Origin: Micromonospora luteifusca
GTDB taxonomy: Bacteria > Actinomycetota > Actinomycetes > Mycobacteriales > Micromonosporaceae
DNA length: 64,000 bases
NCBI RefSeq assembly: GCF_016907275.1
Contig: NZ_JAFBBP010000001.1
Location: 6,562,001-6,626,000, forward strand
Reading direction: 5' to 3'
In this document: positions 3,740 to 59,113 of the stretch, one piece after another
How positions within the stretch are numbered: the stretch's first letter is position 1
Layout: each line of letters begins with the position of its first letter
Made by a program: the position numbers and the translations under genes
Notes under the pieces: model-generated
What the model was told of the DNA's origin: nothing
Database searches by the model: none
The model's input: only the letters and a program-made list of their open reading frames with translations

Positions 3740-3803
3740 CCCTACCACGGCTCGGGGGACAGCGGCAGCGACGCGGGCCCCGTCCGTTCCTAGCCTCGAA
3801 GGT

Positions 3804-4550: not shown

Positions 4551-4551
4551 C

Positions 4552-6453: not shown

Positions 6454-6549
6454 CCGTTCGCACCATTTCATCACGGTAGGTCCATGCGGTCCGGCGCGGC
6501 GGCCCCCCGAGCACGGGGTGTGACGTCACCGACCGGTAGGTTGCCGGGC

Positions 6550-7023
6550 ATGGTGGAAGCGGCAGCCGGCAGGGGCGTGCAGATCTGGACCGACGGGGCG
6601 TGCAGTGGCAACCCCGGACCGGGCGGCTGGGGTGCGCTGCTGCGCTACGGCGACCACGAGCGGGAGTTGTGCGGTGGTGAGGCCACGCCGACCACCAACA
6701 ACCGGATGGAACTGATGGCGGCCATCCAGGCGCTGGAGAGCCTGAACCGGCCGGTCACCGTGGAGTTGCACACCGACAGCACGTACGTGCGCAACGGCAT
6801 CACCAGTTGGTTGGCGTCGTGGAAGCGCAACGGCTGGCTGACGGCCGCGAAGCAGCCGGTGAAGAACGCCGACCTGTGGCAGCGGCTGGAGACGGCCTGC
6901 GAACGGCACGAGGTCACCTGGCTGTGGGTCAAGGGGCACAACGGCCACCCGGAGAACGAGCGGGCCGACGGGCTCGCCAACAAGGGCATGACCGAGGCTC
7001 GGGGCGCGCTGACCAGCCGCTGA
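6550..7023 (+). CDS. rnhA: Ribonuclease HI
   Basis: 157 residues, the normal RNase HI length. It cuts the RNA strand of RNA-DNA hybrids in the cytoplasm, acting on Okazaki primers and R-loops. The four metal-binding carboxylates are visible: D15 ([11 protein letters not shown]), E54 (NRMEL), D76 (HTDSTYV) and D140 (ENERAD), with the catalytic-loop H130 in KGHNGH. ATG 6550 is chosen because the catalytic strand starts ten residues later; an upstream ATG at 6484 would add a non-conserved basic extension. Confidence 0.96.
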
Positions 7024-7030
7024 GCCCGGA

Positions 7031-7258
7031 TCAGCGGGTGGCGTCGGGATGCCCCGGCATGCTCGACCCGCCGCCGCTGCTGCCCGACGAGCCACCGGCG
7101 ACGCCCGAGTTGTCGGGCTCGGTCACGATGTCCGGCCGGACGTCGGTGTCCGCCGGTGCGGGGACCTCGGTGTCCGTCTCGACCTGCACCAGTGGCTCCT
7201 GGCCGACCTCACCTTCGCTGTCGCCCGGCTGCTTACCTTGGCGATTTCGGTAGCCCAC
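7031..7258 (-). CDS. Small acidic hypothetical protein
   Basis: 75 residues, GTG start at 7258. It begins with a basic head, continues with an acidic, proline-containing middle (QVETDTEVPAPADTD) and ends in a Gly/Ser-rich tail. No membrane segment, cysteine or known domain. Probably disordered. It converges with rnhA, with seven bases between the stops. No function can be given, and it might be a non-coding frame, although its composition is unlike the usual shadow frames in this DNA. Confidence 0.45.
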   Translation of the reverse strand: MGYRNRQGKQPGDSEGEVGQEPLVQVETDTEVPAPADTDVRPDIVTEPDNSGVAGGSSGSSGGGSSMPGHPDATR

Positions 7259-7330
7259 GCCGTGCCCCCCGTCGATACCGATCCGCGTCGGCGCTGGCTA
7301 CCCGGCGTCGTCCCGGCCGAAACCTCGCGC

Positions 7331-8254
7331 TCAGCGGCGCCGGCTCCGGCGGGCGGGGGCGCTGGTCCGGGACGGTTGGCGTAGCGGGGTGAGCGGCAAC
7401 GCCGTCCAGTGCGTCGGCCGGGTGAGCGTCGCCGGCAGTTCGGTACGCGCGTCACCCCGGGCGGCGTCCAGTTGGGCCTGGTGCAGGAAGAGGGTCGTGC
7501 GCAGATCCGCGGCCCGCAGGTCGGCCCCGCGCAGGTCCGCGCCGGTGACGTCGGCCAGGCTCAGGTCGGCCCCGCGCAGGTCGGCACCGATCAGCAGCGC
7601 CCCGCGCAGGTTGGCCCGGCGCAGGTCGACCCGGCGCAGGTCCGCACCGAACAGGGGGGCACCCCGATGGTCGGCACCCTCGGGGGAGCGGACCGCGTCG
7701 CTGGCCCGGGACAGCAGCGGGTTGACCCGGTCCCGATGCGCGACGACGTCCAGCGTGCGGAGCTGCGTCGGGTCACCCTCGGTGAGCGTCGCGGTCTCGG
7801 CACGGGCACGCTCCAACTCGACGCTCAGGTCGACCGGCAGCCGCAGCGCCACCGCCTCGGTGAGGTACCAGAGCAGCTCGTGCAGCGGCCGCAACACGGC
7901 GAACGCCTCCGCCATCGCCGGCAGTGTCTCCGGCGCGTCGCGCCAGTCCCGTCCGCCGAAGGTGACCTGGGCGACCTGCTGACCGGCACCGAAACAGTCG
8001 AACACCGTACAGCCGGGGAACCCGCGTTGCCGCAGGTCGTCATGGATGCCGCAGCGGTGGTCCGGGCCCAGGTTGGGGCAGGGCCGCCCGGCCGGCTTGT
8101 CGATGGCGAAGTCCGCCGACGCGGCGAAGGCGGGCACCACGCAGCACAGCCCGAAGCAGCGCCCGCAGTCGGCACGAAGCTGCGGCGGCCTGGAGGACGG
8201 TGCGGGGTCGGGCGACACGCGGATGGTCCTCCAGACAGTCAGGGACGAACCCAT
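7331..8254 (-). CDS. Cysteine-cluster plus pentapeptide-repeat protein
   Basis: 307 residues. The N-terminal half has eight cysteines (C30, C33, C37, C38, C59, C68, C82, C87) in an arrangement like the CxxCxxxCC metal-binding modules of the YkgJ/UPF0153 type, so a zinc or iron-sulfur site is likely. A helical middle follows. Residues about 205-255 hold some ten A(D/N)LRxx pentapeptide repeats, which fold as a right-handed quadrilateral beta-helix, and a basic tail ends the protein. ATG 8254 is preceded by GAGAGA. The same frame stays open far upstream, but that part is the shadow of the next gene. Function unknown. Confidence 0.8.
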   Translation of the reverse strand: MGSSLTVWRTIRVSPDPAPSSRPPQLRADCGRCFGLCCVVPAFAASADFAIDKPAGRPCPNLGPDHRCGIHDDLRQRGFPGCTVFDCFGAGQQVAQVTFGGRDWRDAPETLPAMAEAFAVLRPLHELLWYLTEAVALRLPVDLSVELERARAETATLTEGDPTQLRTLDVVAHRDRVNPLLSRASDAVRSPEGADHRGAPLFGADLRRVDLRRANLRGALLIGADLRGADLSLADVTGADLRGADLRAADLRTTLFLHQAQLDAARGDARTELPATLTRPTHWTALPLTPLRQPSRTSAPARRSRRR

Positions 8255-8289
8255 TGTCTCTCGCGTCGCGTTGACCGGCCAGGTCGGGG

Positions 8290-9387
8290 TCACCGTCCGT
8301 GTGCGTCGCCGGCCGCCGCGGCCCGGGGTGCCGGGGTACGCGGGCCGTCCGGAGCCGAAACCAGGCGGTAGATCTCCCGCTCCCCGTCGCCGTGCCCGTA
8401 CTTCTGGTCGAAGTGCCGTTTCACGGCGGCGGCCGGCGTGCGGTCCCCGTCGTTCGGCTCGGCCAGCGTGAACACCGCGGGGGCCGCCCCGGGTGCGCGG
8501 GGTGGCAACGCGGCCCGCATCGTCAGCGGCGCGGTCACCCGAAACCCACGGCAGTCGACGTAATGCTGCCCGTCCACCGTCGCGTACGGCACCCGCACCT
8601 CGACCACGTCCGAGTCGTCGTGACGCAACGTGACCGTGACCGACCAGTACCGCTCCAGAACCAGGGTGGCCTGCTCGTGCTCCCAGAGCTCCTCGAACCG
8701 GGCGTGCACGAACCCGCCCCACGGGCTGTCCATGTCCACCTCGAGCTGAGGCACGTTGAACGACAACTTCCCGATCGGGAAGAACGAGATCAGCGCACGC
8801 CCGTCCCACTGGTAGAGCTGGATCGACGGGGACGCGTCGTAGAGCCGAACCTGCAAGCGGTGCCGCAGCCGGGAGTCGAGGGCGTCGGCGAAGGCGGCCA
8901 GGTGGCGCAGGTTGGTGCGGATCTGGCGCGGGACGTCCACCCGTTGCCGTTCCAGCTCCTCGGAGCGCTGCTGGGCGGCGGTGCAGTCCGGGTCGAGCAG
9001 GAGCAACTGCACCTGGGCACCGTTGGCGAGCGCTGCCCGTATCGCGGTCAGGGTCTCCTCGCGGTACCGCTGCTCCAGCAGGATCGTCCAGGTGTCGAGG
9101 ATGCGCACCCGGCGACCGGAGCGGTGCAGCCGCGTCACGAACGTCTGCTGGTCGAAGCTCAGGTGCTCCTGCACCCGCGCCTTGCGGGCCTCCTCGAACA
9201 GCGGGTCGAAGATGACGTACGAGATGGCCGCGAGCACCACGCTGGACCCGAGGTTGAGCAGCAGGTCGCTGAGGAAGCCGGTGCTGAGCCAGGCGGCCAC
9301 CAGCATGAGGGTGGCGATCGCGAGCAGCGGCCCTCCGACGACGAAGGTGCGTCGTTGCCGCCCGCCCCGACCAGCCCACCCGGGCAT
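8290..9387 (-). CDS. Membrane-anchored DUF5919-like protein
   Basis: 365 residues. Two hydrophobic helices lie near the N-terminus (about 17-34 and 37-60), followed by a large soluble domain on the inner face. The soluble part has a phospholipase-D-like feel (LYDASPSIQLYQWDG and the strand patterns before it) and resembles the DUF5919 family; this assignment is from memory of the family pattern. ATG 9387 has an excellent GGAGGGAGAG box; a GTG at 9435 is possible but poorly supported. The pentapeptide-repeat gene follows 35 nt downstream in the same direction. Function unknown. Confidence 0.75.
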   Translation of the reverse strand: MPGWAGRGGRQRRTFVVGGPLLAIATLMLVAAWLSTGFLSDLLLNLGSSVVLAAISYVIFDPLFEEARKARVQEHLSFDQQTFVTRLHRSGRRVRILDTWTILLEQRYREETLTAIRAALANGAQVQLLLLDPDCTAAQQRSEELERQRVDVPRQIRTNLRHLAAFADALDSRLRHRLQVRLYDASPSIQLYQWDGRALISFFPIGKLSFNVPQLEVDMDSPWGGFVHARFEELWEHEQATLVLERYWSVTVTLRHDDSDVVEVRVPYATVDGQHYVDCRGFRVTAPLTMRAALPPRAPGAAPAVFTLAEPNDGDRTPAAAVKRHFDQKYGHGDGEREIYRLVSAPDGPRTPAPRAAAAGDAHGR

Positions 9388-9568
9388 CCGCTCTCCCTCC
9401 GTCGTCGGCTGGTCTCGCCGCCGCCCACTGATCACCGGAATGCGGAGGATACGTGCCCGCTTTGCCGCTCGCTGTCCCGTTCGGGACCTGCGGGTTCACC
9501 GACTGGACCATCTCTGCCGCTCTTAGGGTGACGGTAACGGAGTCGGGCGACTGCGGAGGGTGGGCGCG

Positions 9569-10177
9569 ATGGACGACGGTGAACGTGAAAAGGCGCTCCT
9601 CACTGCCCTGACCACCGAGCACTACGCGTTGCAGACGTCCCGGGCCGGCACCATCGCCGAGGCCACCGGCCGCGCCACCATCTTCCTGTCCGTCCTGTCA
9701 GCGGCACTGATCGGCCTCGGCTTCGTCGCCAGCAACGACAAGGTGGTCCGGCCCTACCTCGCCGCGGTCCTGCCGACGTTGGTGATCATCGGGGTGCTGA
9801 CGTTCCTGCGGTTGGTGGAGACCACCGTCGAGAACTCGTTGGACCTGCGGCGGATCCAGCGCATTCGGGCCTACTACCAGCACCGGTTCGCCGGCGAGCA
9901 GGACTTCTTCGCCGACGCGGTGATGGCCGACGACAGCATGACCAGGGCGTGGAAGCTGGTCGGTACGACGCCGGGGCGGTGGGAGTTCCTGCTCACCACG
10001 GCCGCACTCGTAGGTGCGGTCAACGCGGTACTGAGCGGGCTCGGCATCGCCCTGGTGGCCGCGGCGGCGGGGGTCGGCGGCGCGCTGACGATCCTCGTCG
10101 GGGTGCTCGTCGCGTTGGTGGCGTTCGGCGTGCAGTACGTGTACATCGTCCGGGCGTCGGCCGCGCCGATGCGCTGA
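9569..10177 (+). CDS. Four-helix membrane protein, unknown function
   Basis: 202 residues. Two hydrophobic pairs are seen: about 33-52 with 62-80, and about 148-165 with 170-195. Between them is a cytoplasmic arginine-rich segment (DLRRIQRIRAYY). It is divergent from the DUF5919-like gene. ATG 9569 sits ten bases after GCGGAGGG; a GTG at 9560 overlaps that box and is less likely. No enzyme motif. The size and layout match uncharacterised actinobacterial membrane proteins. Confidence 0.75.
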   Translation: MDDGEREKALLTALTTEHYALQTSRAGTIAEATGRATIFLSVLSAALIGLGFVASNDKVVRPYLAAVLPTLVIIGVLTFLRLVETTVENSLDLRRIQRIRAYYQHRFAGEQDFFADAVMADDSMTRAWKLVGTTPGRWEFLLTTAALVGAVNAVLSGLGIALVAAAAGVGGALTILVGVLVALVAFGVQYVYIVRASAAPMR

Positions 10178-10196
10178 CGGCGCCGGCTGACGGTGC

Positions 10197-11003
10197 TCAG
10201 ACCGCCCGCCAGTCATCGTTGGTCAACGCTGCGGCCTGGGGACCCATCAGCAACATGCCCCCGTCGACCGGCCAGGACGCGCCGGTGACGTAGCTGGCGG
10301 CGGGGGAGGCGAGCAACGCGACCACGGCGGCCACCTCCCGGGCGTCGCCGGGCCGCCCCAGCGGCACGCCGGGTCGTTCCTGGGTGAACGGGTCGACATC
10401 CTCCTGACCGGTCATCGGCGTGGCTATCTCGCCCGGGGCGACGGCGTTGACGGTGATCCCGTCGGCGGCCAGCTCCTGCGCCATCACCCGGGTCAGGAGC
10501 CCGAGCCCGCCCTTGGCGGCGCAGTACGCGGCGGAGCCCACCCGGGGCGCGTGCTCGTGCACGCTGGTGATGTTGATGATCCGTCCGCCGGCACCGGTGG
10601 CCCGCATCCGTCGCGCGGCCCGCTGGGCGCACAGGAAGGGCGCGTCCAGGTCGAGGGTGAGCACCTCGCGCCACTGCTCCCACCCGGTGTCGACGAACGG
10701 CGTCGAGGCACCGGTGCCAGCGTTGTTGACCAGCACCCCGATGCCACCCAGCCGGTCGGCCAGCTCGTCCACCACCGCCGCCGCGTCCGGCAGTCGGGTC
10801 AGGTCCACCTCGGCGACCTCGCAGCGCCGCCCCGTCGCGCGGACCTCGGTGGCCGTTCGCTCGGCACCGTCGGGGTCGCCGTACCAGGTGACGCCGATCT
10901 CGAAGCCGGCCTCGGCCAGGGCGATCGCGCAGGCCTTGCCGATGCCGGAATCCGCGCCGGTGACGATGGCGATCCTCGGGTAGTTCTCGTATCGCTGCGG
11001 CAT
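10197..11003 (-). CDS. SDR family oxidoreductase
   Basis: 268 residues of classical short-chain dehydrogenase. The cofactor motif is [11 protein letters not shown] near residue 14, the NNAG motif follows strand 4, the catalytic Ser is in INITSVHEH, and the YCAAKGG segment supplies Tyr and Lys. The C-terminus has the [11 protein letters not shown] ending common in glucose 1-dehydrogenase or 3-oxoacyl-ACP reductase relatives. Substrate cannot be told. It converges with the upstream membrane-protein gene and is divergent from rtcB with a 69-nt gap. Confidence 0.9.
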
Positions 11004-11072
11004 GCTCCCGCACTACCCGGACCGCACCGGCTCAACCGGGTGTACCGGCGGACGCGGTGGGTAGCCGAAGGC

Positions 11073-12491
11073 ATGGAGCTGGTTCAGGAGTCGCCGTACC
11101 GGTTCCGAATCGACCGGGAGGCACCGATGCGGGTGCCCGGGGTGGTCTTCGCCGCGCCGGAGCTGCTGCCCGACGTCGGCGCGGACCGCTCGCTGGACCA
11201 GGTGGCGAACGTGGCCACGCTGCCCGGCATCGTCGAGGCGTCGTACGCCATGCCCGACGTGCACTGGGGTTACGGCTTCCCGATCGGTGGCGTCGCCGCC
11301 ACCGACATCGCCGCCGGTGGCGTGGTCTCGCCCGGCGGCGTGGGCTTCGACATCTCCTGCGGGGTACGACTGCTCACCGCCGAGCTGGACCGGGCGGAGC
11401 TTGCCCGGGTGCTCGACGCGCTGATGGACGGCCTGGACCCGGCGGTCCCGCGCGGCATGGGCCGGGGCGCGGTCTGGCAGCTCGCCGACCGGGCCGAGCT
11501 GGACGCGGTGCTGCGCGGCGGCTCCCGGTACGCGGTCGAGCGCGGGCACGGAGTGCCCCGGGACCTGGCTCGCTGCGAGGACGGCGGCGTGGTGGCCGAC
11601 GTCGACCCGGCGCAGGTCAGCGACCGGGCTGTGCAACGCGGACAGGGTCAGGTCGGCAGCCTCGGCTCCGGCAACCACTTCCTGGAGGTGCAGGTCGTCG
11701 AGGAGGTGTACGACGAGCCGGTCGCGGCGGCGTTCGGGCTGCGGCTCGGGCAGGTCTGCGTGATGATCCACTCTGGGTCCCGGGGGCTGGGTCACCAGAT
11801 CTGCACCGACCACGTGCGGATCATGGAACGGGTGATGCCCCGGTACGACATCGAGGTGCCGGACCGGCAGTTGGCCTGCGCACCGGTGGAGTCGCCGGAG
11901 GGGCGGGCCTACCTGGGCGCGATGGCCGCTGCGGCAAACTACGCCCGTGCCAACCGGCAGCTCCTCGCCGAGTCGGCCCGCCGGGTCTTCGCCGGGGTCG
12001 CCGGTACCGGCCTCGATCTGGTCTACGACGTGTCGCACAACCTCGCGAAGATCGAGGAACACGAGCAGGACGGCGGCGCCCGGCAGCTCTGCGTGCACCG
12101 CAAGGGCGCGACCCGGGCGCTGCCGCCGGGGCACCCGGATCTGCCGGACGACCTGCGCGACGTCGGCCAGCCGGTGCTCATCCCTGGCTCGATGGGCACC
12201 TCGTCGTACGTGCTCACCGGCGTCGCCGGCAACCCGGCCTTCGCGTCCACCTGTCACGGCGCCGGCCGGGTCCGCAGCCGGGGCGAGGCCACCCGGGCCT
12301 CCCGTGGGCAGGACGTGCGGCGTGTCCTGGAGGGACGGGGTGTCGCCGTACGCGGCGCGTCCTGGAAGGGGTTGGCCGAGGAGATGCCGGACGCGTACAA
12401 GGACGTCACGGCGGTGGTGGAGGCTTCCCGGGGTGCCGGGCTGTGCCGGCTGGTCGCCCAGCTCACGCCGCTCGGCGTGGTCAAGGGCTGA
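11073..12491 (+). CDS. rtcB: RNA-splicing ligase RtcB
   Basis: 472 residues, full length for RtcB, which joins RNA 2',3'-cyclic phosphate ends to 5'-OH ends using GTP and Mn2+ in tRNA repair or splicing. Motifs seen are [48 protein letters not shown] and [13 protein letters not shown]; these carry the metal ligands and the His that takes GMP. ATG 11073 gives the usual family start. It converges with an archease gene, its known activator. No RtcR-type regulator is nearby. Confidence 0.95.
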
Positions 12492-49400: not shown

Positions 49401-49484
49401 CCGCGACGACGCTCGTCATACCGGCCGACAATTCGGCGCGAAAAGCCGCAATAGCGCATAGACGCAATGACGGCGGTCAACGGA

Positions 49485-49514
49485 TATGATCCGGCTCCAT
49501 TACCCTTAGCTAAG
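49485..49514 (+). promoter_or_regulatory. Candidate -10 box and palindrome before the kinase operon
   Basis: TATGAT (49485-49490) is a consensus-like -10; the -35 is weak. A 10-nt palindrome CTTAGCTAAG (49505-49514) ends at the GTG start of the protease gene. No clear Shine-Dalgarno box is seen, so the transcript may have a very short leader. The surrounding 113 nt are AT-richer than the rest. Confidence 0.5.
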
Positions 49515-51193
49515 TGACGTTCAGCCATGGCAACGAGCGATGGCCGGTCCGTGTCCGTAGTGAGCACGGCGAGGTTCTGGGCGCCGGGATGGCGTTGGAT
49601 GAGCGCCGCGTCCTGACCTGCGCCCACGTCGTCAGCGCCGGCGGCGACACGGAGTCACCCAGCACCGAGCCGACCTGGCCGGTCCATGTCGACCTGGTCG
49701 GCCAGTCGGTCAGCCGGACGGTGCCGGCCCGGGTGGTGCCGGGTTGCTGGTGGCCACCCACCCACGACGGGCGGGGCGACATCGCGTTGCTCGAGCTGGA
49801 GGAACCCGCGCCGCAGGGCCCCTTCGCGCCGCTGCGCCGGATGCGGCGGACCTGGGACCGCCGCGTCATCATGTACGGCTTCCCGGAAACGCTGGAACAC
49901 GGCGTATTTGTCGAGGCCCGGCTCACCGGCCGGTCCGGGGCGGGACGGGAACGGATCCAGATGGTCTCGGCGACCACCGGCCCCCAGGTCAGCCGCGGCT
50001 TCAGCGGCGCGGCGGTCGTCGACGCCGACACCGGGCACGTCGTCGGAATGGTGGTCAGCACGTACCAGGATGGCGACCACGACCGGGACGTGATCGGCGG
50101 CGGCGACCCGGGCAGCGGTCTGTCGTGGATGATCCCGGTCGAGACGATCCTGAGCCGCCTTTCCTGGATCCGCGACCAGGTGCCCGGAGAGTCGTCGGTC
50201 GACCTCAGCTTCCGCTCGGCCGAGGAGACTCCGGCGGACCCGAGGGTCGCCCGCCAACTCGTGGACTTTTTCGGTCGCCAGCTGCCCGGCAACGTGCTGG
50301 TCATCGTCATCAACCACCGCGATTCCGGCGTCGCTGCGGCGGTGCGTCAGGCCGCCGTGCTGTCCAGTCGGGAGCTTCGACCACCGATCGACCCGCACCA
50401 GGACGTCGTCGCCCCGCCGATCGGCAGCATCGACCTTGCGGTGGATGCCGCGGACAAGAGCACGAAGGACGTGTCCCAACGGATCGCCGACTGGGCCGGG
50501 GCGGCCGACGCCGCGACCACGGTGCCGGACATCGACCGGGCCATCGAGACGACGCCGCGCTCGATCATCATCAACAACATCGACGAGGCCGCCGAACCCG
50601 AGACACTCCTCTCCGAGGTGGTGCTTCCTCTGGTCGACCAGGCTCCCACGCGGGACCTGCGGATGCTGCTGACCTTCCGCGGCGAGTCGATCCCGCTGCG
50701 CACCACTCTGCTGGCGAGTCGCGTCGCTGGCCTGCAGACCGCCGAGGAGGCCGCCCGCCGGGCGTACCGGAGGGCAGCCGTCGTGGTCGCCGACGTGCCC
50801 CGGCCGCAGCCCGTGGCGACCGAGCTGCGGATCCAGCTGACCAAGCTGCGGGCCGCGGCCGCCACCACCGACGGCGACACCCTGGCCGCCCTCCTTGCCT
50901 CGACCGAGCGGGCCACCGACCGGGCGCTGCGCAGGGCCGAGTCGATCCGGCGGGAGATCGTGGCACGGGAGGATCTCTGGTCCGAGCTTCGCGGCCGGCT
51001 GGGCGCCTATCTCGCGATGGCCGTGCAACACGGGTTTTCCGAGGATGCCGCGCTCGGCACGTCGTACCGGCACGCGCACGAACTGCTCCTGGCCGCGCCG
51101 TGCGACCTGGCGGTCGCCGAGGTGGCGGTACGCCAGTACGCCGAGGCGGTCGCACAGCGAGTTGGCGGTCCGCGCGGAGGGAGCGGTTCTTGA
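49514..51193 (+). CDS. Trypsin-like protease fused to a STAND-like domain lacking the Walker A lysine
   Basis: 559 residues. Residues 1-215 are a chymotrypsin-fold protease with a full catalytic triad: H38 (TCAHVV), D89 (GRGDIALLEL) and S164 (RGFSGAAVV). No signal peptide, so it acts in the cytoplasm. Residues about 240-425 copy the pattern of STAND NTPases: GSIDLAVDAADKSTKDV, a Walker B-like IIINNIDEA (351-359) and LLTFRGE as sensor. Where Walker A should be (263-275) the protein reads IVINHRDSGVAAA, with no lysine. A helical tail (430-550) follows. First gene of the PknG operon; overlaps the kinase start. Confidence 0.85.
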   Translation: MTFSHGNERWPVRVRSEHGEVLGAGMALDERRVLTCAHVVSAGGDTESPSTEPTWPVHVDLVGQSVSRTVPARVVPGCWWPPTHDGRGDIALLELEEPAPQGPFAPLRRMRRTWDRRVIMYGFPETLEHGVFVEARLTGRSGAGRERIQMVSATTGPQVSRGFSGAAVVDADTGHVVGMVVSTYQDGDHDRDVIGGGDPGSGLSWMIPVETILSRLSWIRDQVPGESSVDLSFRSAEETPADPRVARQLVDFFGRQLPGNVLVIVINHRDSGVAAAVRQAAVLSSRELRPPIDPHQDVVAPPIGSIDLAVDAADKSTKDVSQRIADWAGAADAATTVPDIDRAIETTPRSIIINNIDEAAEPETLLSEVVLPLVDQAPTRDLRMLLTFRGESIPLRTTLLASRVAGLQTAEEAARRAYRRAAVVVADVPRPQPVATELRIQLTKLRAAAATTDGDTLAALLASTERATDRALRRAESIRREIVAREDLWSELRGRLGAYLAMAVQHGFSEDAALGTSYRHAHELLLAAPCDLAVAEVAVRQYAEAVAQRVGGPRGGSGS

Positions 51194-53466
51194 CACCATG
51201 CAACTGGCTAGGCTGCACCGGCACCGTCGACGAGACCGGTTTCTGTGACCTCTGCGGTCTGGCGCCACTCCCCACCGACAGCGCCAAGCCTGCGGCGGCC
51301 ACGTCCAGGTCGGCCACCCGGGACGTCTGGACGGTGGCCAGTCTCGTCTCCCTGCCGGTGCTGACCTTCTCGCCCGCCGACGCGGCCACCGAACCGCTCC
51401 GGGTGCCCGACGAGTTGCGGGTCTGCGCCAGGAATCACCCGGTCGGTCGCAGCCGGGGTGGTCGACCCGGTCGGGACCGGGGTTTCTGCCCCTACTGCCC
51501 GACCCCGACGCCGTTCAACTTCCTTCCCGGCCTGCAACCGGGCGATCTTGTCGCCGGGCGGTACAAGGTGGTCCGCTGTGTGGCCCGCGGCGGTCAGGGC
51601 TGGGTCTATCTCGCCCACGACACCCACAAGGATCAGATCGACGTCGCGTTGAAGGGTGTGTTGCACGCCGAGGACGAGGCATCCCTGAAGGCCGCGGTCG
51701 AGGAGCGGCAGTTCCTCAACACACTGGACCACCCGAACATCGTCCGGAGCACCGACTTCGCCACCCACGACGACCCGGTCGCGGGTCCGACCGGCTACAT
51801 CGTGATGGACTACCTCGACGGCATGTCGTTGCACAAGCTGCAGGCCGCCGCCAAGGACCCTCGGCAGCCGGATGTCGCGCTGCCGATCGACCACATCCTC
51901 GCCTACGGTCACGAGATCCTCGCCGCGCTCGACTATCTGCACCGGCGCGGGCTGCTCTACACCGACATGAAGCCCGACAACGTGATGCGGACCGCCGACC
52001 GGATCAAGGTGATCGACCTGGGCGGGGTCCGCAAGGCCGACAGCGGGTCCGAGCGGATCGTCCACTCCGTCGGCTTCTCGGTGAGCAAGACGGAATACCA
52101 GACCCGGGGGGCGAGCGAGCGCTCCGACCTGTTCGCCCTCGGTCGTATGTTGGAGGAGCTGTACCGGCACCGCACGCCCGGGCCGGACACGCCCGGTGCA
52201 GACCCGGACGCCCTCGGCATCGAGTCGTTCCGCCGGCTCGTCGCCCGGGCGGTCCGCCCGGACTGGGACCGGCGGTTCGCCTCCGCCGTCGAGATGTCCG
52301 AGCAGCTCCTCGGGGTGCTGCGGGAGATCCTGGCGGGCCAGCCGGACCGGCGTCAGCCCGAGCCGATCTCGCTCTTCCAACCCGCCGCCCAACTGCTGGA
52401 CGCGGGCCTCGGGCTGGTCCCACCACTGCACACCTGGATCGGTGCGGTCGACAGCACCATCCTGGACGACGGCCGTCCCACCTCCGTCGACGTGGCCCTC
52501 GGCCTGCCGGTGCCGCGACCCGACCCGGACGACCCGGCCGTCAACGTGCTCCGCACTGTCGACGCGTCGGACGCGCAGGCGCTGCTGGGTGAGCTCGCCA
52601 TGGTCGAACAGACATCGGTGGAGATCGAGTTGAGTCGGTGCCGGGCACACCTCGCGCTGGCCGATCTCGCCGCGGCCGCCGCGGCGTTGTCCGCCGCAGA
52701 GACGTTGCCCAGCACCCAGCCCGACGTCGACTGGCGGATCGCCTGGCACCGTGGGCTGCTCGCGCTCGCCGACGACCGGATCGACGTGGCGGGGCGGCAG
52801 TTCGACGTGGTCTACGGCGACATCCCGGGGGAGGTCGCCCCGAAGCTCGCGCTGGGCTATTGCGCCGAGCGGGGCGGCGACGACGCGCGGGCGGCCCGCT
52901 ACTACGCAGCGGTCTGGTTGCGAGACCCGTTCCAGGCCAGCGCCGCGTTCGGGCTGGCCCGGCTCCGCCTGGCGGCGACCGACCGGGCCGGGGCTGTCGC
53001 CGTACTCGACGAGGTTCCGGCGCTCTCCCGGCACCACGACGCCGCCCGGGTCGCCGCGGTGCGTGTTCTGTCGTCCCGGTTGCCCGGCGGCCCACCCACC
53101 GCCCGCGAGGTCGACCAGGCCGTGCACCGGCTGACCGGGCTGGATCTCGACGGCGAGTCGCGTGACCGGCTGACCACGGCGATCCGGGAGATGGCGCTCG
53201 ACCTGGTTCGTGCCGGAGCCGCCGCCGACCTGACCGGCGGCCCGGCGCTGGGTGAGCCGCCGACCGAGCGTGTCATCCGTGAGTTGCTGGAGAACTCGTA
53301 CCGGGCCCTGGGCCAGCAGGCGCAACACGTCGATGTCCCCGAGCCCGTGGCGGTGCGGTCAGGCCGCTCTCGGCTGGTCGGTCGCACCGGCGACGCCGCC
53401 CGTCGCGCCGCGCACGACGTGCTCATCGACCGGGCGAACGCCGTCCGACCCCGCACCCGATGGTGA
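51190..53466 (+). CDS. pknG: PknG-like Ser/Thr kinase with rubredoxin-like and TPR domains
   Basis: 758 residues, close to mycobacterial PknG (750). Zinc or iron knuckles come first: C4, C9, C19, C22, then C79, C100, C103, where the third knuckle reads CARNH, so H83 may replace a usual cysteine. The kinase domain (about 118-380) has K155 in VALKG, the HRD site as YTDMKPDN with D259, and D276 in IDLGG replacing DFG; both changes are normal for PknG. A TPR-like helical tail (about 420-740) follows. TTG 51190 overlaps the protease stop and has a GGAGG box. Confidence 0.9.
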   Translation: MTPCNWLGCTGTVDETGFCDLCGLAPLPTDSAKPAAATSRSATRDVWTVASLVSLPVLTFSPADAATEPLRVPDELRVCARNHPVGRSRGGRPGRDRGFCPYCPTPTPFNFLPGLQPGDLVAGRYKVVRCVARGGQGWVYLAHDTHKDQIDVALKGVLHAEDEASLKAAVEERQFLNTLDHPNIVRSTDFATHDDPVAGPTGYIVMDYLDGMSLHKLQAAAKDPRQPDVALPIDHILAYGHEILAALDYLHRRGLLYTDMKPDNVMRTADRIKVIDLGGVRKADSGSERIVHSVGFSVSKTEYQTRGASERSDLFALGRMLEELYRHRTPGPDTPGADPDALGIESFRRLVARAVRPDWDRRFASAVEMSEQLLGVLREILAGQPDRRQPEPISLFQPAAQLLDAGLGLVPPLHTWIGAVDSTILDDGRPTSVDVALGLPVPRPDPDDPAVNVLRTVDASDAQALLGELAMVEQTSVEIELSRCRAHLALADLAAAAAALSAAETLPSTQPDVDWRIAWHRGLLALADDRIDVAGRQFDVVYGDIPGEVAPKLALGYCAERGGDDARAARYYAAVWLRDPFQASAAFGLARLRLAATDRAGAVAVLDEVPALSRHHDAARVAAVRVLSSRLPGGPPTAREVDQAVHRLTGLDLDGESRDRLTTAIREMALDLVRAGAAADLTGGPALGEPPTERVIRELLENSYRALGQQAQHVDVPEPVAVRSGRSRLVGRTGDAARRAAHDVLIDRANAVRPRTRW

Positions 53467-53496
53467 CCGAACCGACCCGGAACGGAGCATGAATCG

Positions 53497-54927
53497 GTGG
53501 ACACCGCTATCCAGTTCGGCCTCGAAGTCAACCAGAACAAATACCTGCGTGTGGGTGGCCGGGAGATGCACGCCGTCCTCTCGGTGACCGGGGAGCGGAC
53601 GACGGGCGAGGACGACACGCCAGCCCGGTCGGATCCGTCCCGGCTGGTCGAGGTGCTGGTGATCGACTGTTCCGGGTCGATGGCGGATCCACCGACCAAG
53701 ATGGCGGCGGCGCAGCAGGCCGCCGCCGCGGCGATCAACGTGTTGCCGGACGGCGTCCGGTTCGCGGTGATCGAGGGGACCGGGCAGGCCAGAGTGGTCT
53801 ATCCACCGGCGGAGACGCTCGTGACCGCCTCGCCGGCCACCCGGAAGGAGGCCAAGGCGGCGGTCGCCCGGCTCAGCGCCAGCGGCGGGACGGCGATGGG
53901 CAGTTGGCTCGCGGCGGCACGGGACCTGCTTCCGCAGTCCTCGTCGACGATCAATCACGTGCTGCTGCTCACCGACGGCATCAACCAGCACGAGACCGAG
54001 GAGGAGTTGGAGCGCACCCTGCGGACCTGCGCCGGTCGGTTCGTCTGCGATCCCCGAGGCATCGGAGAGGGGTGGCACCCGCCGGATCTGCTCCGGATCG
54101 CCGCCGCGCTGAACGGCACCGCCGAGGCCGTACGGCGACCGGCCGACCTGGTAGCCAGTTTCCGGGAGTCCATTCGTGTCGCGCTGACCAAGCTCCTGCC
54201 GGACGTGCGGATTCGGCTGCGGACCGTGCCGTACGCGAAGGTGATCTTCTTCAAGCAGGCCCGCCCCACCATTCAGGACCTCACCGAGTACGCCACGAAG
54301 GTCGACGAGCGCACGTGGGAGGTCGCCACCGGCTCGTGGGGTGCGGAACGCCGGGAGTTTCATGTCTGTCTGGGTGTCGAGCCGCCCGACGACATCCTGG
54401 AGCAGGACCGGTTGGCCGCCCGGGTCGACCTGGTGGTCGACGGGGAGCTGCGGGCCGCCACGGCGACCGTCCTCGTGCACTGGACCGTCAACATGGCCAG
54501 GTCGGCCCGGATAGATCTCAGCGTCTCCCAGGTGACGGGGCAGGAGGACGTCCGGCAGGCCATCAATGCCGGCTGCGACGCGTACGACCGTGGCGACCGG
54601 ATCGAGGCACACGCTCAGTGGGCTCGGGCGGTGGCGCTGGCGACGGCGACGCGGGACGAGGTCGCCCTGGACCAGCTGCGGCACCTGGTGGACATCGAGC
54701 CCGGTGGCCTCGTCCGGCTCAAGGAGAACCTGAGCCAGACCGACATCAAGGTCAGCATGATCGAGTCGACGCAGAACCCGGTGCACCCACCGGTGCAGCG
54801 GGGCACGGCGGTCGCGGACCAGATCTGCGGTGCCTGCGGGGAGACGTCACCGCCCGGCGCGGGCCGTTGCGAGAATTGTGGTCGGCGGTTCGCGGGCGAC
54901 GACCCACCAGCGGAAGTGTTGGTATGA
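53497..54927 (+). CDS. VWA-domain protein with C-terminal zinc ribbon
   Basis: 476 residues. The von Willebrand A domain (about 50-225) has a full MIDAS: D57, S59 and S61 (DCSGS), T132 (SGGTAMG) and D160 (LTDG). A beta-rich middle (230-345) and a helical part follow. C445, C448, C459 and C462 (CGACG and CENCG) form a zinc ribbon at the end. No signal or membrane segment. It probably binds the kinase or another operon protein in a metal-dependent way. GTG 53497 starts 30 nt after pknG; its stop overlaps the next ATG. Confidence 0.92.
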   Translation: MDTAIQFGLEVNQNKYLRVGGREMHAVLSVTGERTTGEDDTPARSDPSRLVEVLVIDCSGSMADPPTKMAAAQQAAAAAINVLPDGVRFAVIEGTGQARVVYPPAETLVTASPATRKEAKAAVARLSASGGTAMGSWLAAARDLLPQSSSTINHVLLLTDGINQHETEEELERTLRTCAGRFVCDPRGIGEGWHPPDLLRIAAALNGTAEAVRRPADLVASFRESIRVALTKLLPDVRIRLRTVPYAKVIFFKQARPTIQDLTEYATKVDERTWEVATGSWGAERREFHVCLGVEPPDDILEQDRLAARVDLVVDGELRAATATVLVHWTVNMARSARIDLSVSQVTGQEDVRQAINAGCDAYDRGDRIEAHAQWARAVALATATRDEVALDQLRHLVDIEPGGLVRLKENLSQTDIKVSMIESTQNPVHPPVQRGTAVADQICGACGETSPPGAGRCENCGRRFAGDDPPAEVLV

Positions 54928-56021
54928 CGGCGGTCGTGGGTACCTCGCCGCTGGTCAGCACCACCCGGCAAACCCTCGTGCGTCTGCGCGGGTGGCTGCT
55001 TGGGATCACCGCGGTCACCCTGGGCACCAGTCTGGCGATCTTCCTCGGTGTCGCCGGGAATGCCGACGTCGCCGCGGACCGGTCCGTGCCGGCGATCCTC
55101 GCCAGCTACGACGCGCAGGACGCGCTGCGCAACGCGCACCTCGCCGCGGTGCGCAACCTCGCCGAGGGTGGCGAGGTCCTCGGCGGGCCCGGGGTGGATT
55201 ACCAGCGCCAGATCGCCGGTGCCGGCCAGTACCTCACCCTGTTGGCGGAGAACAACGCGGCCGGCGACAAGGGCACCCAGGCGATCCAGACGATCGAGGC
55301 GTTGCTGGTCACCTACACCGGGCTCATCGGCCAGGCCGATGCGCGCTACCGGGACGCCAGTCTGCGGGCGCTCGGGGTGGCCGCGCTCCGGGACGCGGCG
55401 AGCCTGTTGGACGACATCCTGGTCCGGCTTGAGCGTCTGCGGGGCATGCAGTTGCGTGCCTTGGACAGCCAGGTGCACAACGTCTGGACCAACAAGCTGA
55501 CCGCGGCCGTCTGGTTGCTGCCGTTGGTGGGGCTCGGCGTGCTGTTGATCCGGACGCAGGTGTACCTGACCCGCCGCTTCCGCCGGACGATGAATGTTCC
55601 CCTGCTGGTGGCCACGGCCGCGACGGTGGGGATGGTGGCCCTCACCTCGTTGAGTCTCGGTTCGGCGAGCCAGTTGGACCGGGCCCGCGCGGGAGTCGAA
55701 GCCGTGCACGGCAGCCGGCAGGGGCAGCTCGAGGACGTGCGTTTCCGGGCCGCCGACGGCTTGGCGAGTGCCGTGCGGGAGCAGTGCAGGGCCGCCTGCG
55801 CCGACACCATCGCGGAAATCGGCACGCGGTCGCCGTCCCCGTCCTCGACGCCGGGGCTGGCGGTCATCGCGGCCGACGTCGCCATCACCGCCGATGCCGT
55901 CGGCGCGGCCGACAGTCGCTCCGTCGAGCTCGCCCTGCCCCTGCTCGCGCTCGGCATCGCGGTGCTGGTCCTCGCGGGCTTCCGACCCCGCCTGGCGGAA
56001 TATGGAGAGCGGTCGACATGA
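54924..56021 (+). CDS. GlnX-like membrane protein
   Basis: 365 residues with four helices, about 22-44, 190-210, 225-245 and 335-358. The 45-185 segment would face outside and is all helical, like a sensor of methyl-accepting or GlnX type. Its position between a PknG-like kinase and a solute-binding lipoprotein mirrors mycobacterial GlnX, which relays the ligand state of GlnH to PknG. Both its start (ATGA) and its stop (ATGA) overlap its neighbours. Homology to GlnX is inferred from topology and context. Confidence 0.8.
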   Translation: MTAVVGTSPLVSTTRQTLVRLRGWLLGITAVTLGTSLAIFLGVAGNADVAADRSVPAILASYDAQDALRNAHLAAVRNLAEGGEVLGGPGVDYQRQIAGAGQYLTLLAENNAAGDKGTQAIQTIEALLVTYTGLIGQADARYRDASLRALGVAALRDAASLLDDILVRLERLRGMQLRALDSQVHNVWTNKLTAAVWLLPLVGLGVLLIRTQVYLTRRFRRTMNVPLLVATAATVGMVALTSLSLGSASQLDRARAGVEAVHGSRQGQLEDVRFRAADGLASAVREQCRAACADTIAEIGTRSPSPSSTPGLAVIAADVAITADAVGAADSRSVELALPLLALGIAVLVLAGFRPRLAEYGERST

Positions 56022-57406
56022 AGCGGTGCCCACGGAGGTCGCGAACGGTGTTGGCGATGGCCACGGCGTTGCTGGCTGGTGTCGCGTTGAGCGGATGCGC
56101 TGCCGAGCCGGCCGCGGAGCTGACGGTCCTCGGTTCCTGGACCGACGAGGAAGAGGCGGAGTTCACGAGGGTTCTGCACGACTTCGAGGCCGCGTCGGGC
56201 ATTCGGACCCGTTACCAGGGGCACCGGGACGTCAGCCAGGTGCTCCAGGTGGGGATCGAGCGAGGTCGCCCGCCCGACGTCGCGATCCTGCCCCGCCTCA
56301 ACGACCTGCAACGGTACGTCAACGCCGGCCAACTGGCGCCGCTGAAAGGCGCCTTCACGACCGACCCGGCCGCCGCTCCGCAGCTGATCAAGCTCGCCCG
56401 CAAGGTCGGGCCGGACGGCAACCCGGTCGGTGGCGAACTCGCCTACGCGGTCACGATCGCCACCCACCTGAAGAGCGTGGTCTGGTACGACCCGGCAGAG
56501 CTGGCCAAGTTCGGCGAGCATCCGCCACGGACGTGGGAGGAGATGGTCAGCCAGACCCAGCGCATCGCCGATGGTCAGCAGGTGCCCTGGTGCCTCGGAA
56601 TGAGTGCCCCGCCGGTCTCCGGCTGGCCGGGCACCGACTGGATCGAGGACATCCTGTTGCACGACTCCGGCCTCGTCGCCTACGAGCGCTGGACCCACGG
56701 CGACCTCCCCTGGACCGCACCGGAGATCAGGGCCGCCTGGGAAACCTGGGGTGCCCTGCTGCGGGTCTCGGCGGGGGAGACGGCCCGAGCCAGCCTCTAC
56801 ACCAAGTTCCAGGTGGCGGGGAAGGGGCTGTTCCCGCGCGAGGAGCCGGCAGCGTCGTCCGCCAAGCGGGGTTGCCATCTGGACCACCAGGGTTCCTTCG
56901 TGATCCGCGACTACCGGCGGCACCTGGCAAAACTGGCCAGCTCGACGAGGGCCGCGTCGCCTGCCCCGTCGTTCACCTTCTTCCCGACACCACCGCCGGC
57001 CACAAAGACGGACAACTCGTCGCTGCAGGAGGTCTCCGACGATGTCGCGGCCATGTTCCGCGACACCGAGCCAGCCAGGAAACTGATGAGCTACCTCGCC
57101 TCCGGGCAGGCGCAGGTGGCCCGGCGTGCGCAGACCCAGGACGTGGCCTTCAGCCGGCGGACGACGGCCGCCGACTACCAGGACCCGGTCACGAAGGCGG
57201 TCGCGGCGCGGCTGCACACCGGCACCCTGTGCTGGGACGGGTCGGACCTGCTGCCGGCGGCGATGGCCACGGCCTTCGAGCGGGCGGTCCTGGTCTACCT
57301 GGAGGCACCGGAGCGTCTGGACGTTCTGCTGACCGAACTCGAAGCGGTCCGAGGGAAGTTGTCGAAGACCGAGTGGATGGATCTCCAGTGCGTGCCGACC
57401 GCGTGA
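56018..57406 (+). CDS. Extracellular solute-binding lipoprotein
   Basis: 462 residues. The signal peptide ends in the lipobox LSGC with C27 as lipid anchor. The body is an ABC-type solute-binding fold (LTVLGSWTDEEEAEF, FEAASGIRTRYQG, PPDVAILPR, YAVTIATHLKSVVWYDP), of the sugar/oligosaccharide class and larger than mycobacterial GlnH. There is no ABC permease or ATPase here, so it should serve as a receptor, presenting a ligand to the membrane protein before it. ATG 56018 overlaps that gene's stop. Confidence 0.92.
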   Translation: MKRCPRRSRTVLAMATALLAGVALSGCAAEPAAELTVLGSWTDEEEAEFTRVLHDFEAASGIRTRYQGHRDVSQVLQVGIERGRPPDVAILPRLNDLQRYVNAGQLAPLKGAFTTDPAAAPQLIKLARKVGPDGNPVGGELAYAVTIATHLKSVVWYDPAELAKFGEHPPRTWEEMVSQTQRIADGQQVPWCLGMSAPPVSGWPGTDWIEDILLHDSGLVAYERWTHGDLPWTAPEIRAAWETWGALLRVSAGETARASLYTKFQVAGKGLFPREEPAASSAKRGCHLDHQGSFVIRDYRRHLAKLASSTRAASPAPSFTFFPTPPPATKTDNSSLQEVSDDVAAMFRDTEPARKLMSYLASGQAQVARRAQTQDVAFSRRTTAADYQDPVTKAVAARLHTGTLCWDGSDLLPAAMATAFERAVLVYLEAPERLDVLLTELEAVRGKLSKTEWMDLQCVPTA

Positions 57407-57420
57407 GAGGGCAGTGAACG

Positions 57421-57750
57421 ATGACGGAGTTGCGCAGATTCGACCTCGACGGTGGCGGGTCGGTGGTGGTCGAGGTCGACGGTAGGGCCGGTGTGACGCC
57501 GGCTGGCAACGCCGGCAAGGTGGTCCGCGAGGCGCGGGCGACGTTCGACCGGGCGCTCTCCGAGGTCCGCGACGCCGCATCCGCCGCGCTCGGCCAGTTC
57601 CAGTCGATGGCTCACCGTCCGGACGAGGTCGAGATCACCTTCGGAGTGCAGTTGACCGCGGAGACCGGCGCAGTGATCGCCCGGACCGGCGTGCAGGGTC
57701 AACTGACGGTGACGGTGCGCTGGCACCGGCCGCACGCGGAGACCCCGTAG
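57421..57750 (+). CDS. Trypco1 (trypsin co-occurring domain 1) protein
   Basis: 109 residues. The start with FDLDGGGSVVVEVD, the helix KVVREARATFDRALSEVRDAASAAL and the end VEITFGVQLTAETGAVIARTGVQGQLTVTVRW (in parts) match the CU044_2847/Trypco1 family, known to occur with trypsin-like proteases in predicted conflict or signalling systems. It lies last in the operon whose first gene is such a protease. The role is unknown; it may bind or guide the protease. Confidence 0.85.
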   Translation: MTELRRFDLDGGGSVVVEVDGRAGVTPAGNAGKVVREARATFDRALSEVRDAASAALGQFQSMAHRPDEVEITFGVQLTAETGAVIARTGVQGQLTVTVRWHRPHAETP

Positions 57751-57774
57751 CCGAACCGGACGGCCCGGTTCGGC
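57750..57774 (+). terminator. Terminator-like hairpin ending the kinase operon
   Basis: A perfect 10-bp stem, GCCGAACCGG with CCGGTTCGGC, and a 5-nt loop, starting at the last base of the Trypco1 stop codon. No T-run. Confidence 0.65.
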
Positions 57775-57811
57775 GACGTTTGTCCCGGGCTTCGACGGGA
57801 AACGGCCCGCA

Positions 57812-59113
57812 ATGACGAAACCTCGTGTGGTGATCGTGGGAGCCGGGTTCGCTGGTTACCACGCGGCGAAGACGTTGAGCCGGATCGCCCGGGACCGGGC
57901 CGAGATCGTGGTGCTGAACTCCACCGACTACTTCCTCTATCTGCCGCTGCTGCCCGAGGTGGCGGCCGGCGTGGTCGAACCCAAACGGATCGCGGTGCCG
58001 CTGACCGGGACGCTCAAGGGCGTACGGGTGGTGATCGGCGAGGCGGACCACGTCGACCTGCAGAACCGCTGGGTCGGCTTCACCCAGGCGGAGGGGGACA
58101 AGAACCGGCTGGCGTACGACCGGCTGATTCTCGCCGTGGGCAGCGTCAACAAGCTGCTGCCCATCCCGGGGGTGACCGAGTACGCGCACGGCTTCCGCGG
58201 CCTGCCCGAGGCCGTCTACCTGCACGACCACATCGTCCGTCAGATCGAGCTGGCCGAGCAGGCCGAGGACCCGGCCGAGCAGCAGGCCCGCTCCACGTTC
58301 GTGGTGGTCGGGGCGGGCTACACCGGCACCGAGGTCGCCGCGCACGGGCAGTTGTTCACCGATGCGCTGCACGCCCAGCGGCCCCGACTCCCCGTCCGCC
58401 CCCGCTGGATGCTGCTCGACGTCGCCCCCCGGGTGCTGCCGGAGCTGGACAAACGGATGTCGGACACCTCGCACAAGGTGCTCAACCGTCGTGGTGTGGA
58501 CGTCCGGATGGGCACGTCCGTGGCCGAGGCGACCTGCGACGGGGTGAAGCTCACCGACGGCGAGTACGTGCCGACCTGCACGCTGGTGTGGTGTGTGGGG
58601 GTACGCCCCGACCCGTTCGTCAACGAGCTGGGTCTGCGTACCGACCGGGGTCGGCTGGTGGTCGACGAGTTCCTCAACGTCCCCGGCTACCCGGAGGTGT
58701 ACGCCTGCGGCGACGCCGCCGCAGTGCCCGACCTGGTCAATCCGGGTCAGATCTGCGGGATGACGGCCCAGCACGCGCAGCGGCAGGGCAAGCGTGCGGC
58801 ACAGAACATCGCCGCGTCGTACGGCTTCGGCCGGCGCAAGCCGTACAAGCACCACGACCTGGGCTGGGTCGTCGACCTGGGTGGCAAGGACGCGGCGGCG
58901 AACCCGTTGCAGGTGAACCTGGCCGGGTTGCCCGCCAAGGCGGTCACCCGGGCGTACCACCTGATGGCGATGCCCGGAAATCGCACGCGGGTCAGTGCCG
59001 ACTGGGCGCTGGACGCCGCGCTGACCCGGTCGGCGGTCCAGTTGGGGTTGGTGCCGGCCAACGCGGTGCCGTTGGAGAGCACCACACCCGAGGTCGCGAC
59101 CCGAGCCCGCTGA
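57812..59113 (+). CDS. NAD(P)/FAD-dependent oxidoreductase, type II NADH dehydrogenase
   Basis: 433 residues. The FAD site is VIVGAGFAGYHAAK, the NADH site VVVGAGYTGTEVAA, and ACGDAAAV closes the FAD region; YFLYLPLLPEVAAG and ALTPHAQRQ-like AQHAQRQGKRAA are NDH-2 marks. NDH-2 passes electrons from NADH to quinone without pumping protons and sits on the inner face of the membrane. It follows the kinase operon after a hairpin and is probably a separate unit. ATG 57812. Confidence 0.92.
   Translation: MTKPRVVIVGAGFAGYHAAKTLSRIARDRAEIVVLNSTDYFLYLPLLPEVAAGVVEPKRIAVPLTGTLKGVRVVIGEADHVDLQNRWVGFTQAEGDKNRLAYDRLILAVGSVNKLLPIPGVTEYAHGFRGLPEAVYLHDHIVRQIELAEQAEDPAEQQARSTFVVVGAGYTGTEVAAHGQLFTDALHAQRPRLPVRPRWMLLDVAPRVLPELDKRMSDTSHKVLNRRGVDVRMGTSVAEATCDGVKLTDGEYVPTCTLVWCVGVRPDPFVNELGLRTDRGRLVVDEFLNVPGYPEVYACGDAAAVPDLVNPGQICGMTAQHAQRQGKRAAQNIAASYGFGRRKPYKHHDLGWVVDLGGKDAAANPLQVNLAGLPAKAVTRAYHLMAMPGNRTRVSADWALDAALTRSAVQLGLVPANAVPLESTTPEVATRAR

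Follow-up and report, generated by a model that had tools for sequence, protein, structure and literature searches.

GlnX of Corynebacterium glutamicum, the membrane component of the GlnH-GlnX-PknG pathway, is described as having four membrane helices, two four-helix bundles outside the cell and, on the inside, a linker of roughly 11 residues (PMC9769921), and PknG has been proposed to dock to GlnX by its TPR domain (PMC8546545). In a separate line of work on predicted conflict systems, Trypco1 and Trypco2 were named as neighbours of trypsin-like proteases and an actinobacterial theme of kinase, PP2C and vWA genes was mentioned, in a main text that does not contain the word PknG (PMC7159879). 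Here we describe a six-gene cassette from Micromonospora luteifusca that combines elements of both. It lies in a stretch of 64,000 nucleotides (hereafter the window) of a single-contig genome of 7.16 Mb whose named near relatives are Micromonospora, and it encodes a trypsin-like protease, a PknG-like kinase, a VWA protein, a GlnX-like membrane protein, a solute-binding protein (SBP) with a lipobox, and Trypco1. Comparative sequence evidence establishes the parts of this cassette, their intact catalytic residues, their fixed order and co-inheritance, their presence or absence as a block, and their common origin with ordinary PknG loci. On a narrow balance, we take the six genes to be a variant of the actinobacterial PknG signalling locus that has a protease as its output and works through the relay proposed below. 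Among the titles and abstract openings that our literature search covered, with few subscription papers, none apparently describes a link of PknG to trypsin and Trypco1, or X (a helical protein introduced below), PP2C and VWA at one PknG locus. The features of the cassette are as follows.

49514-51193, plus strand: trypsin-like protease of 559 residues (Pfam Trypsin_2, 56 bits), composed of a trypsin domain at about residues 1-210 (H38, D89, S164), a middle domain at about 215-390 for which no relatives are known, and a C-terminal X domain at about 392-552.
50687-51169, plus strand: X domain (residues 392-552 of the protease, by hhalign), also a stand-alone helical protein in ordinary PknG loci.
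51190-53466, plus strand: PknG-like Ser/Thr kinase of 758 residues (Pfam), with a TTG start and a 4-nucleotide overlap with the protease stop; N-terminal cysteine motif, rubredoxin-like part, kinase domain and PknG TPR domain.
53497-54927, plus strand: VWA protein of 476 residues (Pfam VWA_3, 59 bits) with a complete MIDAS motif and C-terminal CxxC pairs.
54924-56021, plus strand: GlnX-like membrane protein of 365 residues (NCBIfam NF058618 and hydropathy).
56018-57406, plus strand: solute-binding lipoprotein of SBP family 1 (Pfam SBP_bac_1, 45 bits), lipobox LSGC at C27.
57421-57750, plus strand: Trypco1 (CU044_2847 family) of 109 residues (Pfam Trypco1; NF041216, 74 bits).
57750-57774, plus strand: hairpin 3' of the last gene, without a T-run (fold z -2.29) and absent from the terminator scan list.
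49405-57773, no strand assigned: block missing between the same flanks in the relatives G323, G312 and G207 and, at lower identity, G330 (blastn of L153, L156, L157 and L180 against the window).

The core of the cassette, running from the protease through the PknG-like kinase, the VWA protein and the GlnX-like protein to the lipoprotein, has the same gene order and strand in all 45 complete loci. Each of these loci was reached by a search for the protease, GlnX-like or SBP gene, and counts among them hold for loci with those genes and are not natural frequencies. Duplicates (L084-L090 and L105) and loci cut by contig ends (L096 and L103) were set aside before counting, and L146, a fusion without VWA, was treated apart; loci with broken frames stayed among the 45 (L043 in protease, kinase and VWA; L079 in the GlnX-like gene; L104 in kinase and lipoprotein; L145 in the protease, which gives two matches). 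Pairwise divergences of the five core proteins are tightly correlated across 39 loci (Mantel r 0.948-0.977 for all 10 pairs, with none of 500 permutations as high; L043, L058, L079, L104, L145 and L147 were left out). We conclude from these comparisons that the core is one co-inherited unit.

Several searches delimit how widely this unit is spread. The GlnX-like protein matched in 97 of 300 genomes of the family at E 0.001, and the 40 regions that were opened (the best-scoring plus hand-picked weaker ones) were classified from their called genes, which were compared with the six proteins of the window, and from profile searches. They comprise 18 complete cores, 2 decayed ones, 8 pairs of GlnX with an SBP of family 1 (GlnX-SBP1 pairs), a single GlnX alone, 10 ordinary-type PknG loci (one a hybrid and one cut before the kinase by a contig end) and one region with a weak GlnX match only. 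Within the genus, 19 of 160 genomes, the window's included, hold a cassette-type lipoprotein (E 4.9e-95 or better); 16 of them have all six genes (with broken frames in G275 and G334), and in 3 the cassette is decayed. A protease-alignment scan of named genomes returned 23 loci (13 complete, 8 repeats and 2 cut by contig ends), and the named genera with a cassette are Micromonospora, Plantactinospora, Virgisporangium, Actinoplanes, Streptomyces and Saccharothrix; the closest named protease is that of M. arborensis (92%). In a sample of the class, 9 of 394 genomes including the window's match the protease profile at E <1e-70, and G576 matches it at 1.7e-51 over positions 7-448; the nine non-window class genomes that were opened, G576 among them, gave 8 complete cassettes and 1 fusion.

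The block can also be seen to be missing as a whole. A search of 41 genus genomes for the next gene after the cassette (57812-59113) gave matches in 39, and 29 non-window loci were examined together with flanks of up to 1.5 kb either way. In L153, L156 and L157 (97-98% identity to the window in the downstream protein), the window flanks up to 49403-49404 and from 57752-57775 lie only 56-160 bases apart on one contig, and the eight-kilobase block is therefore absent in its entirety; the intervening bases of these three loci look unlike each other. L180 (downstream protein 84%) likewise lacks the block, with flanks 61 bases apart. The site is thus empty in 4 of the 29 relatives, L158 has the cassette, and the other 24 have no match to the upstream flank and are uninformative. 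In L154, L155, L159, L160 and L162, which have no cassette, the same place holds a different gene of about 480 codons, which resembles its counterparts among these five (genes were called in 8 of the 29 loci).

These results bear on a sequence-only reading that had proposed the six genes as one operon. Its six genes in one direction are borne out by coordinates, strand and domain calls, its outer boundaries agree closely with the edges of the missing block, and its view of the set as a unit is supported by core order, correlated divergence and the four empty sites. The expected conserved neighbourhood of the protease with PknG holds in all 45 complete loci, and for Trypco1, which is therefore an optional member of the unit, in 23 of them. 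Separation of the genes, which would have counted against a unit, was seen solely for the sensor genes, in the 8 GlnX-SBP1 pairs and the lone GlnX among the 40 regions. Four tight junctions had been claimed; of the five junctions, three are 4-nucleotide overlaps and two are gaps (in gene order: 4-nucleotide overlap, 30-nucleotide gap, 4-nucleotide overlap, 4-nucleotide overlap, 14-nucleotide gap). The closing hairpin does exist, with a 10-bp stem and a 61-nucleotide fold of -32.5 kcal/mol that 6 of 200 shuffles equal, but a strong intrinsic terminator at this position is unsupported, given that no T-run follows and the terminator scan has no entry there.

The cassette shares its ancestry with ordinary PknG loci of actinobacteria. 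One such locus in the same genus (L072) encodes GlnX, an SBP_bac_3 protein, X, PknG, PP2C, VWA and FHA by Pfam; its GlnX scores 395 bits, above the NF058618 cut-off, and its X has no clear Pfam match. L148 and L150, from other genera of the class, have the order X-PknG-PP2C-VWA-FHA-GlnX (with PP2C and FHA labelled from sequence and size), and removal of PP2C and FHA from this order therefore gives that of the cassette. Homology to X covers residues 392-552 of the window protease (hhalign probability 99.6, E 1.8e-24, 30% identity), and 13 X loci match the protease model at 50-84 bits over positions 377-545 only. Because the C-terminus of the protease is homologous to X and VWA occurs in ordinary loci, the cassette is, as judged from these alignments, a PknG locus that lacks PP2C and FHA and in which X carries a trypsin head. 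The sequence-only reading had counted the VWA protein among families of predicted conflict systems, and this import is refuted: since ordinary PknG loci carry VWA as a regular member, it is not a borrowed conflict gene. Of the VWA and zinc-ribbon architecture proposed in the same place, the VWA domain stands, but for the zinc ribbon the match is no more than weak (DZR_2, E 0.042). The VWA MIDAS residues are kept in 44 of 45 complete loci, and the exception, L147, reads DASAD.

The kinase itself belongs to the PknG family, with all of its domain matches above cut-off (PknG_TPR 204 bits, PknG_rubred 35 bits, Pkinase 99 bits). Against M. tuberculosis PknG (2pzi) it scores 327 bits, compared to 342 for the second PknG of the same genome and 532 for that of L072. 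Its K-D-N-D residues are kept in 44 of 45 complete loci, and the kinase domain of L043 was not recovered. In the rubredoxin-like part, the second Cys of the first CxxC pair is gone, leaving CARN in the window and CVRN in the two nearest relatives. A PknG tree of 54 rows has a branch that splits 43 cassette rows from 10 ordinary rows with support 99/98, under a midpoint root and with long branches flagged by the program. Only kinase regions longer than 500 residues entered this tree (L043, L104, L139, L140, L141 and L143, and the ordinary L069-L071, were thereby left out), together with four decayed or fused cassettes and the second PknG of the window genome. L142 and L004 sit on long branches between the two groups, and their placement is unsure. 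L004 is the second PknG locus just mentioned (window genome C1:6126000-6144000, within it 3548-12198), where genes for a GlnX-like protein, a family 3 binding protein, an X-like protein of 286 residues, a PknG-like kinase, VWA and NACHT/AAA are found; by its sequence it is another divergent branch of PknG loci.

It could be argued that the cassette serves plain nutrient sensing, in which the kinase would phosphorylate GarA/OdhI as in mycobacteria with the other genes being auxiliary, and the window genome does encode a GarA/OdhI-type protein (205 bits against a cut-off of 200; L136, C1:7012298-7012681). We regard this as very improbable. PknG is not general in the genus, because only 34 of 160 genomes match PknG_TPR at E 0.001 (32 of them above cut-off); with no match in the other 126, general control of GarA cannot depend on PknG, with the reservation that GarA was sought in the window genome only. 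The ETTS motif is a feature of GarA, and the N-terminus of the GarA-like protein lacks it. Furthermore, three genomes (G032, G104 and G120) hold the cassette and an ordinary PknG locus together.

The protease that distinguishes the cassette keeps its catalytic residues. As the sequence-only reading had proposed, it is trypsin-like with an intact triad, which the Trypsin_2 match and the conservation of H-D-S in 45 of 45 complete loci bear out, and a PDB search returned trypsin-type chains only among the best 60 of 163 matches. It extends through the X domain in 44 of 45 complete loci, with L147 as the exception. Similar X domains are found behind other heads: in L063 (7129-9225) X follows a second Ser/Thr kinase domain, at a locus that also has genes for an SBP1-type lipoprotein, a GlnX-like protein, FHA, VWA, PP2C and PknG (FHA and PP2C read from sequence), and an N-terminal TIR domain precedes the trypsin domain in 2 of 120 listed protease relatives (194 found; Pfam was run on one of the two). 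X therefore seems, from these architectures, to be an adaptor with exchangeable heads, be it trypsin, the second kinase of L063 or TIR-trypsin in the two relatives. The TIR-bearing proteins, P0048 and P0079, are metagenomic. For the middle domain, no Pfam family besides trypsins matched more than 4 of 81 members. Two conserved hydrophobic stretches had raised the suspicion of a worn-out P-loop NTPase, which is unproven, with a probability below 1% in profile alignments to two trypsin-domain neighbours of Trypco1 (one of them trypsin-STAND) and one NACHT protein. A second stretch with a cassette-type trypsin domain lies downstream of the complete cassette in L049 (16998-17690).

On the sensor side, the GlnX-like protein matches NCBIfam NF058618 at E 2.3e-25 and is, because its 89.6 bits fall below the family cut-off of 250, a distant relative of GlnX. 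It has strong hydrophobic segments at 25-43, 191-209 and 334-352 and weak ones at 222-240 and 311-329, and a four-helix reading that leaves 311-329 uncounted gives a 12-residue link and two long outside parts. Such a profile is compatible with, though not decisive for, the topology published for GlnX, and a PDB search with the protein gave a single match at chance level. The lipoprotein matches SBP_bac_1 and SBP_bac_8 above cut-off and has no SBP_bac_3 match in Pfam, and its nearest solved chains are the Thermus glucose-binding protein 2b3b (E 6.3e-8) and AcbH (E 2e-4). By these assignments, the cassette's binding protein is of a sugar type (SBP family 1) and not GlnH (family 3). The GlnX, GlnH and PknG trio of the sequence-only reading thus survives in its PknG-like kinase, its binding lipoprotein and a distant GlnX relative, but not in the GlnH type of the lipoprotein.

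Relatives of the lipoprotein are common, with matches at E 1e-20 or better in at least 159 of 160 genomes of the genus, mostly to a relative of about 30% identity. Behind each of three such relatives (L081-L083, 30-34%) come two genes of some 300-350 codons; going by size and place only, we take these genes for transporter permeases. The GlnX-SBP1 pairs without a kinase-protease cassette (L050, L052-L056, L060 and L061, with 20 kb read) belong to other genera of the family, and in L060 another kinase-like gene lies near the pair.

From these parts we infer each step of a signalling relay, its direction, its ligand and the target of its protease. The lipoprotein would bind a solute outside the cell, probably a sugar-like one, and the GlnX-like protein would relay the bound state across the membrane. 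The PknG-like kinase, docked via its TPR domain, would then change its activity and act together with the VWA protein on the X domain with its trypsin head, which would switch the cytoplasmic protease on or off; Trypco1, where present, may serve as an adaptor or substrate selector of the protease. Docking and the order of the relay are transferred from the known GlnH-GlnX-PknG pathway. Loss of the PP2C phosphatase and the FHA phospho-reader fits a changed output. This chain as a whole, from solute through lipoprotein and GlnX-like protein to a PknG-family kinase that gates a cytoplasmic trypsin-like protease, with X carrying exchangeable heads (trypsin, TIR-trypsin or a second kinase), is a tentative proposal that we think has somewhat more than one chance in three.

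Two variants are counted as indirect support for a sensor that, to infer from sequence, controls the protease via the kinase. In L146 (10769-15064), a single open frame of 1431 residues encodes the trypsin and kinase domains, both with an intact active site, and the PknG TPR domain; no VWA gene was found at this locus, and a Trypco2 gene adjoins. In L042, L045 and L080, which form one clade nested among Trypco1-bearing loci, the protease is undetected, the VWA core is deleted or worn and Trypco1 was not found, and the kinase, the GlnX-like protein and the lipoprotein are intact; L080 retains a short stretch resembling the end of X.

Several points weigh against a relay of this kind. The joint loss of protease, VWA core and Trypco1 counts as a single evolutionary event, and its start may have been due to chance. 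The protease of L147 stops before most of the X domain and the metal site of its VWA protein is altered; together with L146, which has no VWA, it shows that neither VWA nor X is indispensable. The eight GlnX-SBP1 pairs outside any cassette show that the sensor can work otherwise. In the GlnX-like protein, hydropathy segment 311-329 is as strong as 222-240, and a crude lipobox pattern is present in only 27 of 45 lipoproteins, with start sites uncurated. Trypco1 is absent from 22 of 45 complete loci. Finally, in the studied pathway itself, the GlnH-GlnX and GlnX-PknG contacts are reported as not demonstrated (PMC9769921).

The same loci could also reflect feedback, with the protease cutting the kinase, the VWA protein or the GlnX-like protein to end signalling whose output would be ordinary phosphorylation of other proteins. 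Such a role would go well with kinase residues that are intact in nearly all complete loci and with three genomes that keep kinase and sensor without a protease. However, an X domain on all but one of the complete-locus proteases (not L147) and the kinase fusion of L146 suit an output arm at least as well, and we consider feedback unlikely.

Trypco1 is identified with 95.4 bits against a Pfam gathering cut-off of 24.6 and was found in 70 of 394 class genomes. Its partnership with trypsin, in line with the sequence-only reading, extends beyond the cassette: leaving the window's own locus aside, a trypsin neighbour lies within 1.5 kb of Trypco1 in 23 of the 29 loci with the best Trypco1 scores. 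In 22 of these 23 neighbours the main match to the protease model ends at position 178-227, about the end of the trypsin domain (L130 reaches 348). Trypco1 and trypsin are close neighbours at those loci, whereas in the cassette the two bracket the operon. G532 (protease-profile match 1.2e-60, trypsin domain only) is a Trypco1 neighbour of another kind. A PDB search with Trypco1 returned a designed helical bundle and four weaker matches. We know of no experimental test of Trypco1 function. An initial idea that only Micromonospora and a few other genera of the same family have Trypco1 in their cassettes was dropped, as L139-L142 of another family carry it in the same place; nor is its presence tied to an intact protease, as the triad is intact with and without it. 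Trypco2, sought in cassette loci with one L146 protein as sole query, is found in L146 (97 bits, divergent, adjoining) and L147 (91 bits).

Trypco1, along with Trypco2 in these two relatives, belongs to families of predicted conflict systems according to the literature (PMC7159879, PMC10907252). The cassette may thus be a self-destruct device, in which a surface sensor detects threat or damage instead of a nutrient and the freed protease kills or arrests the cell. The rare TIR heads on protease relatives would be at home in such a system, as would the patchy spread of a block that is present or absent whole. Parts such as a nuclease, MoxR or VMAP were, however, not found among the six proteins by Pfam, and PADLOC matches are partial, covering the protease and the kinase domain only (best RT-Protease_XI at E 7e-7 and PD-T4-6 at E 1.4e-30) with none for the other four proteins. 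Moreover, a sugar-type binding protein would be an odd phage detector. We therefore see a conflict role as a minority possibility of roughly one in four, and return to the PknG variant with protease output as the reading that we favour.

The recurrence of X and VWA beside PknG makes them candidate partners for the switching or output of PknG outside mycobacteria and corynebacteria. If the sensor does gate the protease, a nutrient-sensing kinase would here serve as the basis of a pathway for ligand-controlled proteolysis, and Trypco1 would gain a defined set of partners.

Among described systems, protease-nuclease antiviral pairs (PMC12799240) differ from the cassette, which has no MBL-type pro-nuclease among its six proteins (flanking genes unscanned). 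The VMAP or vWA-MoxR ternary systems (PMC7159879) resemble it in a trypsin-like peptidase with a Trypco1 or Trypco2 neighbour and in a VWA protein, but the six proteins have no match to a MoxR AAA+ ATPase or VMAP (flanking genes were outside the Pfam scan), and the cassette is built round PknG, GlnX and the binding lipoprotein. With the kinase-PP2C-vWA theme of GAP1-N2 GTPase systems, described in the same source, it shares a kinase with a zinc-binding part linked to a stand-alone vWA gene; unlike these systems, none of its six proteins matches a GTPase or GAP1, it has no PP2C, and its kinase is of the PknG family. The GlnH-GlnX-PknG-OdhI/GarA pathway of Corynebacterium and Mycobacterium likewise has a binding lipoprotein, a GlnX-like protein and a TPR-bearing PknG encoded together (PMC8546545 and PMC9769921), from which the cassette differs by an SBP of family 1 in place of family 3, a GlnX-like protein below the family cut-off, and the addition of a trypsin head on X, VWA and Trypco1; no GarA output is known for the cassette. 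Ordinary PknG loci (L066-L073 and L148-L151) differ in having PP2C and FHA (Pfam matches in L072, assignments from sequence in L148 and L150), SBP_bac_3 (L072) and no protease, but the X domain, PknG, VWA and GlnX are common to both, and L148 and L150 also agree with the cassette in the relative order of these parts.

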